Shown one piece after another: positions 3,020-11,499 of a DNA stretch of 35,064 nt (within the stretch, counting starts at the first letter, position 1; each line of letters begins with the position of its first letter). The notes under the pieces were generated by a model that worked only from the letters and a program-made list of their open reading frames with translations, searched no databases and was not told where the DNA came from. The DNA comes from Eubacteriales bacterium (lineage in GTDB: Bacteria > Bacillota > Clostridia > Lachnospirales > Lachnospiraceae). The position numbers and the translations under genes were made by a program. The DNA is taken from the NCBI GenBank assembly GCA_030527715.1, contig JAUNAF010000019.1, positions 1 to 35,064 on the forward strand, given 5' to 3'.

Positions 3020-3097
3020 CTAACCCTTCCTTTCCTCTTGATTTTCGAGACATTTTTACTGCCCCGGAACAGTCTCTCTTTTTTTCGACACAAACAA

Positions 3098-3125
3098 ATG
3101 TGAGTGGACAAATGCCCACTCACAT
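3098..3125 (-). promoter_or_regulatory. Leader hairpin of the rimP-nusA operon (possible attenuator; may also terminate the HPr-LDH mRNA)
   Basis: A perfect 10-bp stem (ATGTGAGTGG with CCACTCACAT) encloses an 8-base loop and, on the minus strand, is followed by the U-rich run TTTGTTTGTG. It lies downstream of the predicted rimP promoter, about 20 nucleotides into the leader, and also downstream of the HPr-LDH stop. It could therefore end read-through from the upstream gene and attenuate the rimP operon. A second weaker pairing (GAGAC with GTCTC, enclosing ACTG/CAGT) lies nearer the rimP start at about 3048-3077. Confidence 0.5.
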
Positions 3126-3150
3126 CTCGGTAATCTATAGAAACAATTCG

Positions 3151-3208: not shown

Positions 3209-4540
3209 TTATTTACACTCGGCAATTCCGAGAGGAAGACCCTCGTTGAAATTTCTTGCATTTTCCAGTGTCACAGTTGCGATCGCCTGCAGCGCCTCTC
3301 TGGTAAAGAATGCCTGATGGGAGGTGATCACTACATTCGGGAACATCAGAAGTCTTGCTGTGATGTCGTTGCTCAGATAATCACTGGAGTGATCGGTGTA
3401 TACATTTGCATCCTCACCCTCATATACATCCAGTGCCACCGCATGGAATTTACCTGCTCTGAGCGCTTCGATCAGTGCCTCATTGTCAACCAGACCGCCG
3501 CGGGCTGTATTGACAAACATCACACCGTCTTTCATTCTTCCGATACTTTCAGCATCGATCATATGATAGGTACCGCCCTCTCCCATGATCAGCGGAGCAT
3601 GCAGAGAGATCAGATCTGCTCTCTCAAACAGTTCTTCCTTGCTCACATAGGTAAGGAGTCCTTCCTCCTCCAGCTTTTTGTTCGGATAAGCATCCCAGCC
3701 AATGACCGTCATACCATAACCCTTGCAGATATTCGCCATGCACTGACCGATACGACCGGTGCCAACGATTCCTGCTACTTTATTATGAAGATCCACTCCG
3801 AGAAGACCGCTGAGTGCGAAATCATTTTCACGCACACGGTTTACTGCCTTGTGCAGTCTTCTGTTTGCTGTCATAAGAATACTCATGGCATGCTCAGCCA
3901 CTGCATACGGAGAATACGCCGGAACACGAAGCACCGTGATGCCGCATTCCTTTGCTGCCTGCAGATCCACATTGTTGAAGCCTGCACATCTGAGAAGGAT
4001 CAGACGTACACCGAGGCGATGCAGAGTCTCAACAGCCTCTCTCGGGCATTCATCATTTACAAAGATACAGATCGCATCAAAGCCTTTTGCCAGATCTGCT
4101 GTCTCCGGTGTAAATCTGGTTCCGAAGTTCTGGATCTCACAGTTGTAAGTTCCCTCTCCGGTACCCTTGGACAGCTCTTTAAAATAGATTCTGTCATAAT
4201 CTTTTCTTCCGAAAAAGGCGATCTTCAGAGTTTTTACCTGAGGCTTCTCCTCTGCATTCTCTGAAATACGTTCTTCACTCTCACGAATATTCTCAACAAG
4301 GACTGCTTCTACCTTCTTAAGAGCAGCCTCCTCATCGCCGCCGTTTGCAGTGATCTCCAGCACAGCGCCGTCGCAGATATCCAGACCAAGGATCTGCAGC
4401 ACGTCATTTGCATTCGCGGTCTTGTCACCGTATTTAATAATAATCTGAGAATCCAGTGCTGTGCAGACCTGTGCAAGGTTCGCAGCCGGACGTGCATGGA
4501 CTCCGTTTTTACTTTTTACATGATATTCCAGTTTCTTCAT
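3209..4540 (-). CDS. HPr-domain / D-lactate dehydrogenase (LdhA-type) fusion protein
   Basis: The 443-residue protein joins two domains. Residues 1-88 are an HPr-like PTS phosphocarrier: NGVHARPAANL carries His15 at the exact canonical position, and the fold runs without gaps through GDKTANANDVLQIL. Position 46, Ser in ordinary HPr and the target of HprK, is Asp46 here. A charged linker follows (about 88-103). Residues 104-443 are an NAD-dependent D-2-hydroxyacid dehydrogenase closest to LdhA: RCAGFNNVDL, VPAYSPYAVAEHAM, NAD motif G260-T-G-R-I-G265, Asp283 favouring NAD, and catalytic Arg347, Glu376 and His408 with the 29- and 32-residue spacing of known D-LDHs. It should reduce pyruvate to D-lactate. 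The HPr domain is probably regulatory (inference). The gene is a single unit with its own promoter and a Rex-like operator. The alternative of an unrelated 2-hydroxyacid dehydrogenase is less likely because of the LdhA-specific motifs. Confidence 0.9.
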   Translation of the reverse strand: MKKLEYHVKSKNGVHARPAANLAQVCTALDSQIIIKYGDKTANANDVLQILGLDICDGAVLEITANGGDEEAALKKVEAVLVENIRESEERISENAEEKPQVKTLKIAFFGRKDYDRIYFKELSKGTGEGTYNCEIQNFGTRFTPETADLAKGFDAICIFVNDECPREAVETLHRLGVRLILLRCAGFNNVDLQAAKECGITVLRVPAYSPYAVAEHAMSILMTANRRLHKAVNRVRENDFALSGLLGVDLHNKVAGIVGTGRIGQCMANICKGYGMTVIGWDAYPNKKLEEEGLLTYVSKEELFERADLISLHAPLIMGEGGTYHMIDAESIGRMKDGVMFVNTARGGLVDNEALIEALRAGKFHAVALDVYEGEDANVYTDHSSDYLSNDITARLLMFPNVVITSHQAFFTREALQAIATVTLENARNFNEGLPLGIAECK

Positions 4541-4592: not shown

Positions 4593-4610
4593 ATGTTATC
4601 TTTTTAACAA
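4593..4610 (-). promoter_or_regulatory. Candidate Rex (redox repressor) operator upstream of HPr-LDH
   Basis: Read on the minus strand, TTGTTAA-AAAG-ATAACAT resembles the clostridial Rex consensus TTGTTAA-N4-TTAACAA: the left half is exact and the right half matches in 5 of 7 positions. It lies between the predicted -10 box and the start codon. Fermentative ldh genes are well-known Rex targets in Firmicutes. No Rex gene is in the window. Confidence 0.5.
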
Positions 4611-4754: not shown

Positions 4755-5609
4755 TCACCGGTCTGGAAGAATGCTGTTGTCAAATTCTGCTCTGTGTACA
4801 GCCATGTGCATCCAGTTGTCTCCAATTCGCGCCAGCAGGCGATGACCTGCGTGGATTCCGGGACTTTTCATATCATAATAGCCTAACATATATCCGCGGC
4901 TGGTCACCCTGGTATTTTTCCAACACAGCTCTTTCTTTGGATCGTCTGTATAAAACAGCCCCTCCACCTGGTCGATCCCCATATTCTTAAGTGTTTTGGA
5001 CATCATCAGCTTCATTCCCCGCTTCCCGACGGTGTCAAAAATCAGGCGACCGCCGGGGAAACGCTGCGCAAGATCCTCGACCAGACTTGCGACTTCTGCT
5101 TTTCGAAAATAGTGAAACACTCCCGCAGCAAAAAAGATCACTCCATCGGAACCATCCAGCTGATCCATCCATGCATGGTCTTTCAGGTCCGTCCCAATAT
5201 TTCTCTCCCGTTCTCCGGTTGAGATCATCTGATTTCTGGCATCTATGATCTCCGGAAAATCCAGATTACAGATCCTGCAGCTGCCGTTGTCACAGGCTCT
5301 TCCTGTCTGATCCAGTCCGCATCCGAGATTCACAATCAGCGCATTCGGATACAGCTTCAGATAATCTCTGATTTCCCACATAATATCCAGCTGACGCATC
5401 GCAGCTTCCAATGCCCCAAACTCATAGAAGAAACTGTCTTTCTTCGCCTCCAGTTCCGAGAAATCATAGTCTATTGCTTCACACAACTGTCTGGCAGATT
5501 CATCTCTGTAGAGTTCCGGAAATTTTTCGGCACACATCTTCCGACCATACAAAGGTACAAGCAATGTCTCCTGTACGGAATTCTTTTCAATTCTGATTTT
5601 TTTAGTCAT
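4755..5609 (-). CDS. Class I SAM-dependent methyltransferase, LCMT/PPM1-like
   Basis: The 284-residue protein resembles the leucine carboxyl methyltransferase superfamily, which in bacteria includes O-methyltransferases of the TcmP type. Evidence: an N-terminal region of the form TLLVPLYGRKM...LYRDESARQL...DYDF, SAM-binding motif I IVNLGCGLDQTG at about residues 92-103, and NLDFPEII with Asp117 positioned to bind the SAM ribose. A central GVIFFAAGVFHYF stretch corresponds to motif IV. No signal peptide or membrane segment is visible. Its start overlaps the stop of the upstream TetR gene by four bases (ATGA), so the two form a coupled operon. The substrate cannot be told from sequence; a small carboxylic or phenolic metabolite is the usual guess for bacterial members. 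Confidence 0.8.
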   Translation of the reverse strand: MTKKIRIEKNSVQETLLVPLYGRKMCAEKFPELYRDESARQLCEAIDYDFSELEAKKDSFFYEFGALEAAMRQLDIMWEIRDYLKLYPNALIVNLGCGLDQTGRACDNGSCRICNLDFPEIIDARNQMISTGERERNIGTDLKDHAWMDQLDGSDGVIFFAAGVFHYFRKAEVASLVEDLAQRFPGGRLIFDTVGKRGMKLMMSKTLKNMGIDQVEGLFYTDDPKKELCWKNTRVTSRGYMLGYYDMKSPGIHAGHRLLARIGDNWMHMAVHRAEFDNSILPDR

Positions 5610-6217
5610 GTTTCATCTCCTTCAGAAAGAACTGACAGTAATGCTGTTAAGAGCTGCTGTTTCACCTTTTCATAATGATCGCGCTGTTTCAAGATTACAA
5701 TGCCAAGGATCGCCGTGTTCATCAGATCGGTCAGACGTTCCATTTTTTTCTCATTCAGAGACAGTTCTTTCTGCAATCCCATCTGCTCTATCATTTTCAA
5801 AGTCTGCTCCGTAGTTTCCCTGCAGATTTTCTGATACAGCAATTCCAGTTCCGGATTCCGTCTCTTTTCAATCAGAAACTCCGTGTATATTTCTGCAATT
5901 TCCGGATAGAAGAGCATTCCGTCACACAAGATCTCTGCTATCATCGGAATATCTATCTGTTCGCCATAAGCAGTTTTTTCAAGAGCCCTCTGCCTGTAAA
6001 AATCATTTCTTGCCCGAGCTCCATCGAGAATAATGTCTGACAGGATCGCCTGAGTAGACGAATACAGACGATAAACACCGCCTTTGGACAGTGTCACCTC
6101 CGAAATGATATTTTCCATCGTAGTGGCCTTAAACCCTTTTTCCAGAAATATCCGAATCGCTGCTGTCTTTATTTCCTGTTTTCTGCTCTCTGCAGGCAGT
6201 CTTTCAAATTTTTTCAT
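5606..6217 (-). CDS. TetR/AcrR-family transcriptional regulator
   Basis: The 203-residue protein has the TetR-type N-terminal helix-turn-helix (about residues 11-57: KQEIKTAAIRIFLEKGFKATTMENI...LSKGGVYRLYSS), followed by a variable all-helical ligand domain. It is the first gene of a two-gene operon with the methyltransferase. Its promoter is a perfect consensus, and an imperfect palindrome sits at the expected transcription start, so it probably represses itself and the methyltransferase until a ligand binds (inference). The start at 6217 has GGAG six bases upstream. The effector is unknown. Confidence 0.88.
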   Translation of the reverse strand: MKKFERLPAESRKQEIKTAAIRIFLEKGFKATTMENIISEVTLSKGGVYRLYSSTQAILSDIILDGARARNDFYRQRALEKTAYGEQIDIPMIAEILCDGMLFYPEIAEIYTEFLIEKRRNPELELLYQKICRETTEQTLKMIEQMGLQKELSLNEKKMERLTDLMNTAILGIVILKQRDHYEKVKQQLLTALLSVLSEGDET

Positions 6218-9604: not shown

Positions 9605-10543
9605 TTACGGAAGCAGCATTTTCGCTGCACCGTAGATTCCGGCATCATTTCCCAGCTCTGCCAGTGCAAATCTTGCTCCTCTGCAGGCATGGAACGTATA
9701 TTTCTGGTAATACTTTTCAATGAAGGTAAGAAGGATCGGGCCGGCTTTGGAAACACCACCGCCGATAACGATCACTTCCGGATTTGTCACACATGCAACT
9801 GTGGCAAGTGCAACGCCAAGATATCTTCCGAACTCCTCAGCAACCTCAAGTGCCAGTGCGTCTCCCTCTTTGACTGCGTCGAACACAGTCTTTGCAGATA
9901 CCTCGCCATTGCGGAGCAGGCTGTCTCTCTGATCCTCAGCCAGCTTTCTGTTGGCAAGGAAGGTGATTCCGGTTGCGGATGCAAGCTGTTCCAGACAACC
10001 GGTATTTCCGCAGTTGCACGGCTTTGTCAGACTGTCGGTCACATGAATATGTCCGATCTCGCCTCCTGCACCGTTTGCGCCGTTAACGATCTTGCCGTCC
10101 TGGATAATTCCGCCGCCGACTCCGGTGCCGAGCGTTACCATGACAACATTCTTTGATCCTCTTCCGCCGCCGCGCCACATTTCACCGAGTGCTGCGACAT
10201 TGGCATCATTTCCTCCCATGACCGGAAGTCCGGTCAGTTCTTCCATCTGTTTTTTCAGAGGAATGATCGTGTCCCAATGCAGGTTGACTGCCTTCTGCAC
10301 ATCTCCCTCCTCAGTGACCGGTCCCGGAACGCCGATACCGATGCCTGCGATCTCCTCTTTGTTGAGACCGCGCTCGCTGATTTTTGCAGCGATCGTCTCT
10401 GCGATGTCCGGAAGGATCTGTACTCCGTTATTCTCAGATCTGGTCACGATCTCCCACTTGTCAAGTACTTCTCCGTTTACATCAAATAATCCGCATTTGA
10501 CGGTAGTTCCGCCCACGTCAATGCCAAAACAATACTTTTTCAT
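9605..10543 (-). CDS. glcK: ROK-family glucokinase
   Basis: The 312-residue protein phosphorylates glucose to glucose-6-phosphate with ATP. It has the N-terminal phosphate-binding motif GIDVGGTTVKCGLFD, the ROK signature region GIGIGVPGPV, GGNDANVAALGE with the catalytic Asp, LGTGVGGGII, GEIGH, and the Cys-rich zinc motif CNCGNTGCLEQL typical of ROK sugar kinases. Length fits the family (about 300-320). It starts 20 bases after hprK with no terminator between, so it is likely in the same transcript, linking cytosolic glucose phosphorylation with the HprK carbon sensor. Glucose is the best-supported substrate, though ROK kinases vary (mannose, allose, N-acetylglucosamine). Confidence 0.88.
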   Translation of the reverse strand: MKKYCFGIDVGGTTVKCGLFDVNGEVLDKWEIVTRSENNGVQILPDIAETIAAKISERGLNKEEIAGIGIGVPGPVTEEGDVQKAVNLHWDTIIPLKKQMEELTGLPVMGGNDANVAALGEMWRGGGRGSKNVVMVTLGTGVGGGIIQDGKIVNGANGAGGEIGHIHVTDSLTKPCNCGNTGCLEQLASATGITFLANRKLAEDQRDSLLRNGEVSAKTVFDAVKEGDALALEVAEEFGRYLGVALATVACVTNPEVIVIGGGVSKAGPILLTFIEKYYQKYTFHACRGARFALAELGNDAGIYGAAKMLLP

Positions 10544-10563
10544 CTCACACAGACTTCCTTTCT

Positions 10564-11499
10564 CTATGCCTCTCTTTTTCTTGCAAGGCTCTGCTGTACT
10601 CTGTTATAGAGCTCCTGAGCGGCATTGTAACCCATCTTCTTCTGTCTGTGGTTTACCGCTGCGGTCTCTACGATGACCGCCAGATTTCGTCCCGGACGAA
10701 TCGGAAGTGCATGGCAGACTACACGGTTTCCGAGGAACTCTGTGTACTCTTCTTCCAGACCGAGTCGGTCGTACTCCTTCTCACGATCCCACTCTTCCAG
10801 CTTGATGACCATGTCAATGCCCTGGGTGTTCTTTACGCTCTCAACACCAAACAGAGTTTTTACATCAATGATACCGATACCGCGAAGCTCAATAAAATGT
10901 CTTGTGATATCCGGAGCACTTCCCACCAGGGCAGCGTCACTGACTTTTCGAATCTCAACAACATCGTCTGAAACAAGACGATGACCTCTCTTGATCAGCT
11001 CCAATGCAGCCTCGCTCTTACCGATGCCGCTCTCGCCCATGATCAGGACACCCTCACCAAATACATCTACCAGCACACCGTGGATCGAAATACACGGAGC
11101 CAGTTCAACATTCAGCCAACGGATGATCTCAGCCATAAATGCAGAAGTAGCTTTCTCTGTGGTAAATACCGGAACGCCGTATTTTTCAGCAATTTCCAGC
11201 AGTTCCTGATCCGGAACTGTCTTTGAAGTATAGATCACACACGGAACCTTGCTGGACAGAAAACGCTCGTAGATCGGGAGCTTTTCTTCCAGAGTTCTGC
11301 TCTGAAGATAGGTATACTCTACATAACCGACGATCTGAACTCTTTCATTTGCAAAATGCTCAAAATATCCTGTCAGCTGCAAAGCCGGACGGTTAATATC
11401 AGGAATCGTCACCCTGATCTCTGAAAAATCGACATTGGGCGTCATATTCTTCAGATGCATCTTATCCACTACCTTGCTTAATAATACCCCATTTGCCAT
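10564..11499 (-). CDS. hprK: HPr kinase/phosphorylase
   Basis: HprK phosphorylates Ser46 of HPr (and Crh) when glycolytic intermediates are high, and removes the phosphate when they are low, so driving CcpA-dependent catabolite control. The 311-residue protein has the N-terminal domain, His140 in ISIHGVLVDVFGEGV, Walker A GESGIGKS (155-162), the Asp-Asp pair in LVSDDVVEIRK, the family signature ELRGIGIIDVKTLFG (about 204-218) and the C-terminal PGRNLAVIVETAAVNHRQKKMGYNA split by only small variations. It starts with ATG at 11499 after GGAG and has its own promoter and a leader of about 107 bases. The window also encodes an HPr-LDH fusion whose residue 46 cannot be phosphorylated. glcK follows in the same transcript. 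Confidence 0.95.
   Translation of the reverse strand: MANGVLLSKVVDKMHLKNMTPNVDFSEIRVTIPDINRPALQLTGYFEHFANERVQIVGYVEYTYLQSRTLEEKLPIYERFLSSKVPCVIYTSKTVPDQELLEIAEKYGVPVFTTEKATSAFMAEIIRWLNVELAPCISIHGVLVDVFGEGVLIMGESGIGKSEAALELIKRGHRLVSDDVVEIRKVSDAALVGSAPDITRHFIELRGIGIIDVKTLFGVESVKNTQGIDMVIKLEEWDREKEYDRLGLEEEYTEFLGNRVVCHALPIRPGRNLAVIVETAAVNHRQKKMGYNAAQELYNRVQQSLARKREA

Follow-up and report, generated by a model that had tools for sequence, protein, structure and literature searches.

HPr (PtsH) is phosphorylated at His15 by Enzyme I (EI) with PEP as the donor, and its phosphorylation state follows the flux through the PTS. Crh is an HPr paralogue with one of two sites changed, i.e., His15 has been lost and Ser46 has been kept. 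HPr also occurs as a domain of larger proteins. In the accessible part of a 2008 evolutionary survey, multiphosphoryl transfer proteins (FPr/DTP, HPr-EI, HPr-IIA) are described in which HPr is fused with EI, IIA and other PTS domains; none of the partners named there is a catabolic dehydrogenase, and the word "dehydrogenase" is absent from that part of the text (PMC2405797). Furthermore, HPr can act on metabolic enzymes as a separate protein. According to the accessible parts of two reports, dephosphorylated HPr of V. vulnificus lowers the Km of pyruvate kinase A (PykA) for PEP and so stimulates the enzyme (PMC5987630), and HPr of E. coli binds PykF, PfkB, NagB and Adk (PMC8167557).

The locus described here is part of a stretch of 35,064 nucleotides from a Eubacteriales bacterium of the Lachnospiraceae (contig JAUNAF010000019.1), which is called the window in the following. 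In a few bacteria, enzymes around the pyruvate node are targets of HPr acting in trans; here HPr is attached to the enzyme that completes lactate fermentation. The resemblance to the trans-acting effectors (PMC5987630, PMC8167557, as far as their accessible parts go) lies in the proposed control by the phosphorylation state of HPr at the pyruvate node; in contrast to these separate proteins, the HPr of the present family is covalently bound or comes from a dedicated neighbouring gene. No description of an HPr-D-lactate dehydrogenase fusion was found in the open-access full-text literature. The domains and the regulatory logic are known, and the architecture seems to be undescribed, although these proteins may already carry an HPr family label in annotated genomes.

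The fusion gene, its family and a split form

The fusion gene (3209..4540, minus strand) is a single open frame with an ATG start that encodes 443 amino acids, and both domains were matched by Pfam and NCBIfam profiles, confirming the assignment of an HPr domain fused to an LdhA-type D-lactate dehydrogenase (D-LDH) that had been made in an earlier, sequence-only reading. The HPr domain comprises approximately residues 1-83 (4292..4540, minus strand). It matched the Pfam profile PTS-HPr (PF00381) at residues 5-81 with 73.4 bits (cut-off 23) and the NCBIfam HPr family TIGR01003 at residues 1-81 with 62.9 bits (cut-off 47.9), and it scored below the cut-offs of the equivalog models PRK13780 and PRK13782. 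The earlier reading had extended the domain to residue 88; the domain itself stands, but the match ends at about residue 83, and most of residues 84-94 belong to a linker insertion that is rare among relatives. The linker as a whole (residues 84-103, 4232..4291, minus strand), which carries this insertion, is 10 amino acids long in 75 of 80 relatives and 9 to 11 in 79 of 80. The codons of His15 (4496-4498) and Asp46 (4403-4405), both on the minus strand, are located within the HPr domain at the positions given earlier. Of 34 pairwise placements of standalone HPrs, made to check the register, 32 put their Ser46 on residue 46 of the window protein, and 28 were free of internal gaps.

The remainder of the protein, approximately residues 104-443 (3212..4231, minus strand), is covered by the Pfam domains 2-Hacid_dh and 2-Hacid_dh_C (PF00389/PF02826). 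Only HPr and 2-hydroxyacid dehydrogenase domains were matched in the chain, which has no EI or EIIA domain. The best solved relatives include the D-lactate dehydrogenase 5z21 (E 5.7e-94, residues 102-437) and also 5z20, and on the basis of these structures the conversion of pyruvate to D-lactate is the predicted reaction; the score was below the cut-offs of the NCBIfam D-LDH equivalog models (PRK12480, VanH types). As had been noted from the sequence, the catalytic residues Arg347, Glu376 and His408 are present, and they are kept in all 80 relatives. With the LdhA-type enzymes of Fusobacterium and Pseudomonas (5z21, 5z20) the fusion thus shares the fold family and the catalytic residues, and it differs from them by the N-terminal HPr domain, by a clade-specific MGEGG loop (residues 319-323, 3572..3586, minus strand) and by other residues found only in fused proteins.

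A scan of 84,980 species genomes yielded 204 relatives, and both domains were present in each of the best 80 of the 204 that were retained, which is far beyond chance. The carriers include isolates of Mitsuokella multacida, Sharpea azabuensis, Sharpea porci, Eggerthia catenaformis, Selenomonas montiformis and Floccifex porci, and a sequencing or assembly join could therefore be ruled out as the source of the fusion. The fusion is real. When the query was limited to the LDH part, a close LDH was detected in 173 of the 397 genomes searched in the family of the window. The 13 most similar LDHs (69-100% identity, window included) are encoded in frames of 431-512 amino acids, i.e., in the fused form, and the others among the matches listed have at most 63% identity and frames of 327-424 amino acids. 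A sample of the phylum gave matches in 6 of 398 genomes, three of them fused and three unfused, and the family of genome G158 gave matches in 7 of 61 genomes, all fused, one genome with an additional fragment at a contig end. The names of the two searched families, Lachnospiraceae and Selenomonadaceae, were assigned via match coordinates (G787 = L049 and G158 = L048, respectively). All 15 carrier genomes examined have the fusion as their sole LdhA-like D-LDH; the next-best relatives have 31-37% identity. Of plasmid records, 62 matched, none covered 80% of the query, and no fused copy was seen among them.

In a tree of 113 LDH rows, one branch with a support of 99/99 separates the 93 fused rows from the rest. 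The fused clade consists mainly of Lachnospiraceae and Erysipelotrichaceae with Selenomonadaceae rows inside, and members of four groups (Lachnospiraceae, Erysipelotrichaceae/Coprobacillaceae, Oscillospiraceae and Selenomonadaceae) are intermingled within it. The Selenomonadaceae rows are split between two positions in the tree, one with L048 and its relatives and one with L175 and L133 (100/93); several tree labels are metagenome-assembled genomes, so that single placements may be mis-assigned. The tree shows one fusion event that was followed by transfer between families. The clade is also marked in the LDH part, in a comparison that left out the very distant L120 and L121. A three-residue loop insertion, to which the MGEGG loop belongs, is missing from 18 of 18 unfused rows, and residue 320 within it is a gap in all 18 and Gly in 89 of the 93 fused rows.

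The nearest unfused LDHs by identity among the matches listed, L134 and L135 (63 and 62%), come from two genomes of one genus. In both cases a gene for an HPr of 86 amino acids is located directly upstream of the D-LDH gene on the same strand; at L134 the HPr gene (2847-2587) and the LDH gene (2484-1480) are separated by a gap of 102 bp. The genomes with this split form have another HPr beside EI, and thus the split HPr is an extra, dedicated copy. It has kept His15, has Gln46 and carries an HARCAS motif with Cys where other HPrs have Pro18. In a tree of HPr domains, from which 8 odd or long-branch rows had been removed, 34 fused and the two split domains form a clade (96/85) apart from 50 other standalone HPrs; a clade of the fused domains without the split HPr was not rejected (AU p 0.398). 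Among the rows compared, a stretch of five residues (GEGTYN region) occurs solely in the fused clade and in L134-L136, while in the LDH tree as drawn, the root of which was not reliably inferred, L134-L136 join the other unfused rows (96/91). The split form was found in two genomes of one genus, among 18 unfused loci of the family with the upstream region read. A search of the 397 family genomes with the split HPr returned its own genus and then mostly fused and ordinary HPrs with 35-47% identity, and the matches themselves revealed no second lineage with a split pair. Judged from gene order and the HPr tree, a dedicated HPr is tied to the D-LDH in two gene layouts, fused and split.

His15 and position 46 of the fused HPr domain

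His15 is invariant in the 80 relatives, always in a GxHARPA context. Gly13, Ala16, Arg17, Pro18 and Ala19 are conserved around it, with Arg17 and Pro18 likewise invariant in 80 of 80. The conserved positions cluster around the face of the active site (G13, H15-A20, A23, Q24, C26), and further ones are A42, V47, L48, L51 and L53. The count of 80 of 80 is the unbiased one, since sets of 92 fused and 36 standalone HPr domains had been chosen with a pattern that contains His15 and have it by construction (92/92 and 36/36). In loci chosen by profile, His was the only residue at position 15 of the long frames. The pooled pN/pS ratio of 24 disjoint close pairs was 0.214 for the HPr part and 0.099 for the LDH part. 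The fused HPr domain is thus under purifying selection. The HPr part evolves faster, with a mean pairwise identity of 56% versus 79% for the LDH part, which is what would be expected of a structural relic or solubility domain that has no signalling role; the invariance of His15, Arg17 and Pro18 and the constraint seen in the pN/pS ratio make this explanation very improbable. The fused domain resembles HPr (PtsH) in being a full domain with the His15 signature that passes TIGR01003. It differs by the attached non-PTS metabolic enzyme, by Asn or Asp instead of Ser (or Lys) at position 46, and by forming a clade of its own in which Cys26, Gln24 and Ala23 are nearly invariant, in contrast to standalone HPrs.

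Position 46 is Asn in 75, Asp in 4 and Arg in one of the 80 relatives, and Ser was not found. Among the 92 distinct fused domains Asn occurred 82 times, Asp 6 times, Ser twice, and Glu and Arg once each; Ser46 was seen in the divergent fused proteins L131 and L175 and Glu46 in L124. In the genomes examined, the 36 standalone HPrs with His15 had Ser (19), Lys (13), Arg (2), Ala (1) or Gly (1) at this position, and neither Asn nor Asp was found among them. The fusion is thus the reverse case of Crh, as it keeps His15 and has Ser46 replaced, by Asp in the window. The closest relative of the window protein, L001, has Asn46 at 90% identity, and the Asp46 of the window is therefore a recent local state.

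A gene for HprK is encoded in the window (10564-11499, minus strand; TIGR00679, 370 bits), next to what we take to be a ROK-type glucokinase-like gene (9605-11499 for both, minus strand). With the HprK of the window as query, no HprK was found in the 9 genome handles of Selenomonadaceae that carry the fusion, two of which (G001 and G158) are apparently one genome, while it was matched in 7 of 7 other genomes. A family search found HprK in 13 of 15 carrier genomes, with a control that missed Bacillus subtilis, a species that has HprK. Regulation via Ser46 can therefore not be the purpose of the fusion in those Selenomonadaceae hosts, and a dependence on HprK was ruled out as a requirement.

These data bear on the proposal of the sequence-only reading that the fusion is a permanent mimic of HPr-Ser-P, in which Asp46 would weaken phosphorylation by EI and favour binding to CcpA. 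The Asp46 of the window and of four relatives and the HprK gene in the window fit this proposal, but as a rule of the family Asp46 was ruled out as a conserved mimic by the predominance of Asn, which includes L001, and by the Ser and Glu of the divergent members; together with the HprK distribution this makes the mimic extremely improbable. Likewise, a role linked to CcpA or HprK is, on present sequence evidence, unlikely to keep the fusion. Judged from its residues, position 46 would in most members no longer respond to HprK. Helices are frequently capped at the N-terminus by Asn or Asp, and in HPr Ser46 is located where a helix starts; a helix N-cap role at position 46 would explain both residues without phospho-mimicry. 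The other half of the earlier interpretation, a tie between lactate formation and the PTS via His15, is in agreement with the 80 relatives. Loss of His15, random residues at position 46 or a sequencing join, which had been named as signs against the interpretation, were not found in them.

A proposed role at the pyruvate node

As the fusion is widespread, under selection and has His15 throughout, a tie between the PTS and D-LDH that is based on His15 is the leading reading. EI would phosphorylate His15, the phosphorylation state would tune the D-LDH, and lactate formation would be coupled to PTS and glycolytic flux; we assign this a probability of about 0.5. The fusion would be a fermentative D-lactate dehydrogenase that is regulated by an attached HPr domain acting as a switch. 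His15 would be phosphorylated by EI in proportion to the PEP/pyruvate ratio and the PTS flux. At high PEP the HPr domain would be phosphorylated and the D-LDH held back, and upon influx of PTS sugars the domain would be dephosphorylated and the D-LDH released or activated, so that pyruvate from glycolysis and the PTS would be converted to D-lactate. That the dephosphorylated form is the active one is a guess by analogy with the pyruvate kinase of V. vulnificus. The fused HPr would be a built-in version of the trans-acting effector, placed at the next step, from pyruvate to D-lactate. The single origin of the fusion, the dedicated HPr gene of the split form, the lack of a second LdhA-like D-LDH in the 15 carrier genomes and the known effects of HPr on other enzymes speak for this role; the faster change of the HPr part, the failure to find a conserved PTS neighbour at the 80 loci and the restriction of the split form to two genomes speak against it.

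The conservation of the His15 face would be equally expected if HPr were a docking handle that brings the D-LDH to EI or to PTS permease complexes, where pyruvate set free by EI is consumed locally, and His15 were kept for recognition by EI without an allosteric effect on the LDH. Although the linker is of nearly fixed length, the window protein has extra linker residues; a rigid arrangement of the two domains is thus no strict requirement, which would suit docking. However, the HPr of the split form cannot tether the LDH covalently, so that docking would need a non-covalent HPr-LDH contact there, and we regard docking as unlikely, though worth weighing. In a combination of the two, EI would dock on the fused HPr, phosphorylate His15 and release pyruvate beside the active site of the D-LDH. 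Turnover of the PTS would then both switch the enzyme and supply its substrate, and the side-by-side genes would represent the unfused stage; as a whole, this combination is quite unlikely. The complete His signature and the position of the domain in the HPr tree, as a sister type that is not degenerate, would also suit an additional phosphocarrier between EI and EIIA or further PTS targets, the fusion merely co-ordinating the amounts of the two parts. However, a carrier is not missing in these bacteria, because at least one further HPr-family gene is present in 15 of 15 carrier genomes, and the fixed pairing with one fermentative enzyme across many species suggests that the enzyme is the target, which renders the additional phosphocarrier improbable.

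In two sets of genomes with the fusion, EI itself scored above the cut-off throughout (15 of 15 and 19 of 19). All 23 genomes without the fusion that were searched along with the second set had it as well (42 of 42 together), so that its co-occurrence, although a prerequisite of the proposed link, is uninformative and was dropped as evidence.

The carriers are many gut and rumen bacteria. If phosphorylation of His15 tunes the D-LDH, the branch between lactate and other products would be set by the PEP/pyruvate ratio and the state of the PTS within a single polypeptide and without transcription, which would be relevant for the output of D-lactate in the rumen. The D-LDH gene of Sharpea azabuensis was 12-fold more expressed in low-methane sheep, according to the accessible part of that report (PMC5069950). 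In two Sharpea genomes, one of them from an S. azabuensis strain other than that of the report, the fusion was the only LdhA-type D-LDH found.

Gene surroundings and other HPr paralogues

No conserved PTS neighbour or operon partner of the fusion gene was found, the largest cluster of neighbours comprising 10 of 80 loci, several of which end at contig ends. In the window the fusion gene seems to stand alone. At its 3' side a terminator-like hairpin (3096..3127, minus strand) with a 14-pair stem and a T-rich tail was detected as a consensus match only, and five such hairpins are present in the region versus 2.4 expected; the genes beyond it are presumably rimP-nusA. Just upstream of the fusion gene, a gene for a TetR-like regulator overlaps by a few bases with a methyltransferase-like gene (4755-6217, minus strand; weak PF04072 LCM match).

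A perfect palindrome, TGTTA-N6-TAACA, is located at 4594..4609, 54-69 bases upstream of the start codon of the fusion, and we take it to be Rex-like. The exact palindrome was present in 3 of 99 upstream regions, including that of L001, and is therefore a feature of the lineage of the window and not of the family. With up to one mismatch it was present in 12 of 99 regions, compared to 2.2 (maximum 8) in mononucleotide shuffles; a family-wide Rex site was not found across the 99 regions.

In the genome of the window and three Lachnospiraceae-type genomes, the HPr next to EI has His15 together with Lys46 (Ala in L104), and Ser46 belongs to Crh-like proteins in which position 15 is Glu or Asp. The loci are C53:7750-7989 (L081) and C79:44046-44285 (L082) in the window's own genome, and L090, L098, L100, L104, L153 and L156. 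In these four genomes the residues at both sites suggest a division of labour between HPr paralogues. In G007 and G008 a Crh-like gene is located about 3.7 kb from hprK. Two Selenomonadaceae genomes (those of L048 and L065) encode a second HPr domain in a long frame of about 570 amino acids (L168, L169), located about 2 kb before a ptsH-EI pair; it carries an HARVAA or HARIAA motif and Ser46, and the protein is not a D-LDH. Another Crh-like state was seen in Sharpea genomes, which encode HPr-like proteins with Tyr15 and Ser46 (L160, L163).
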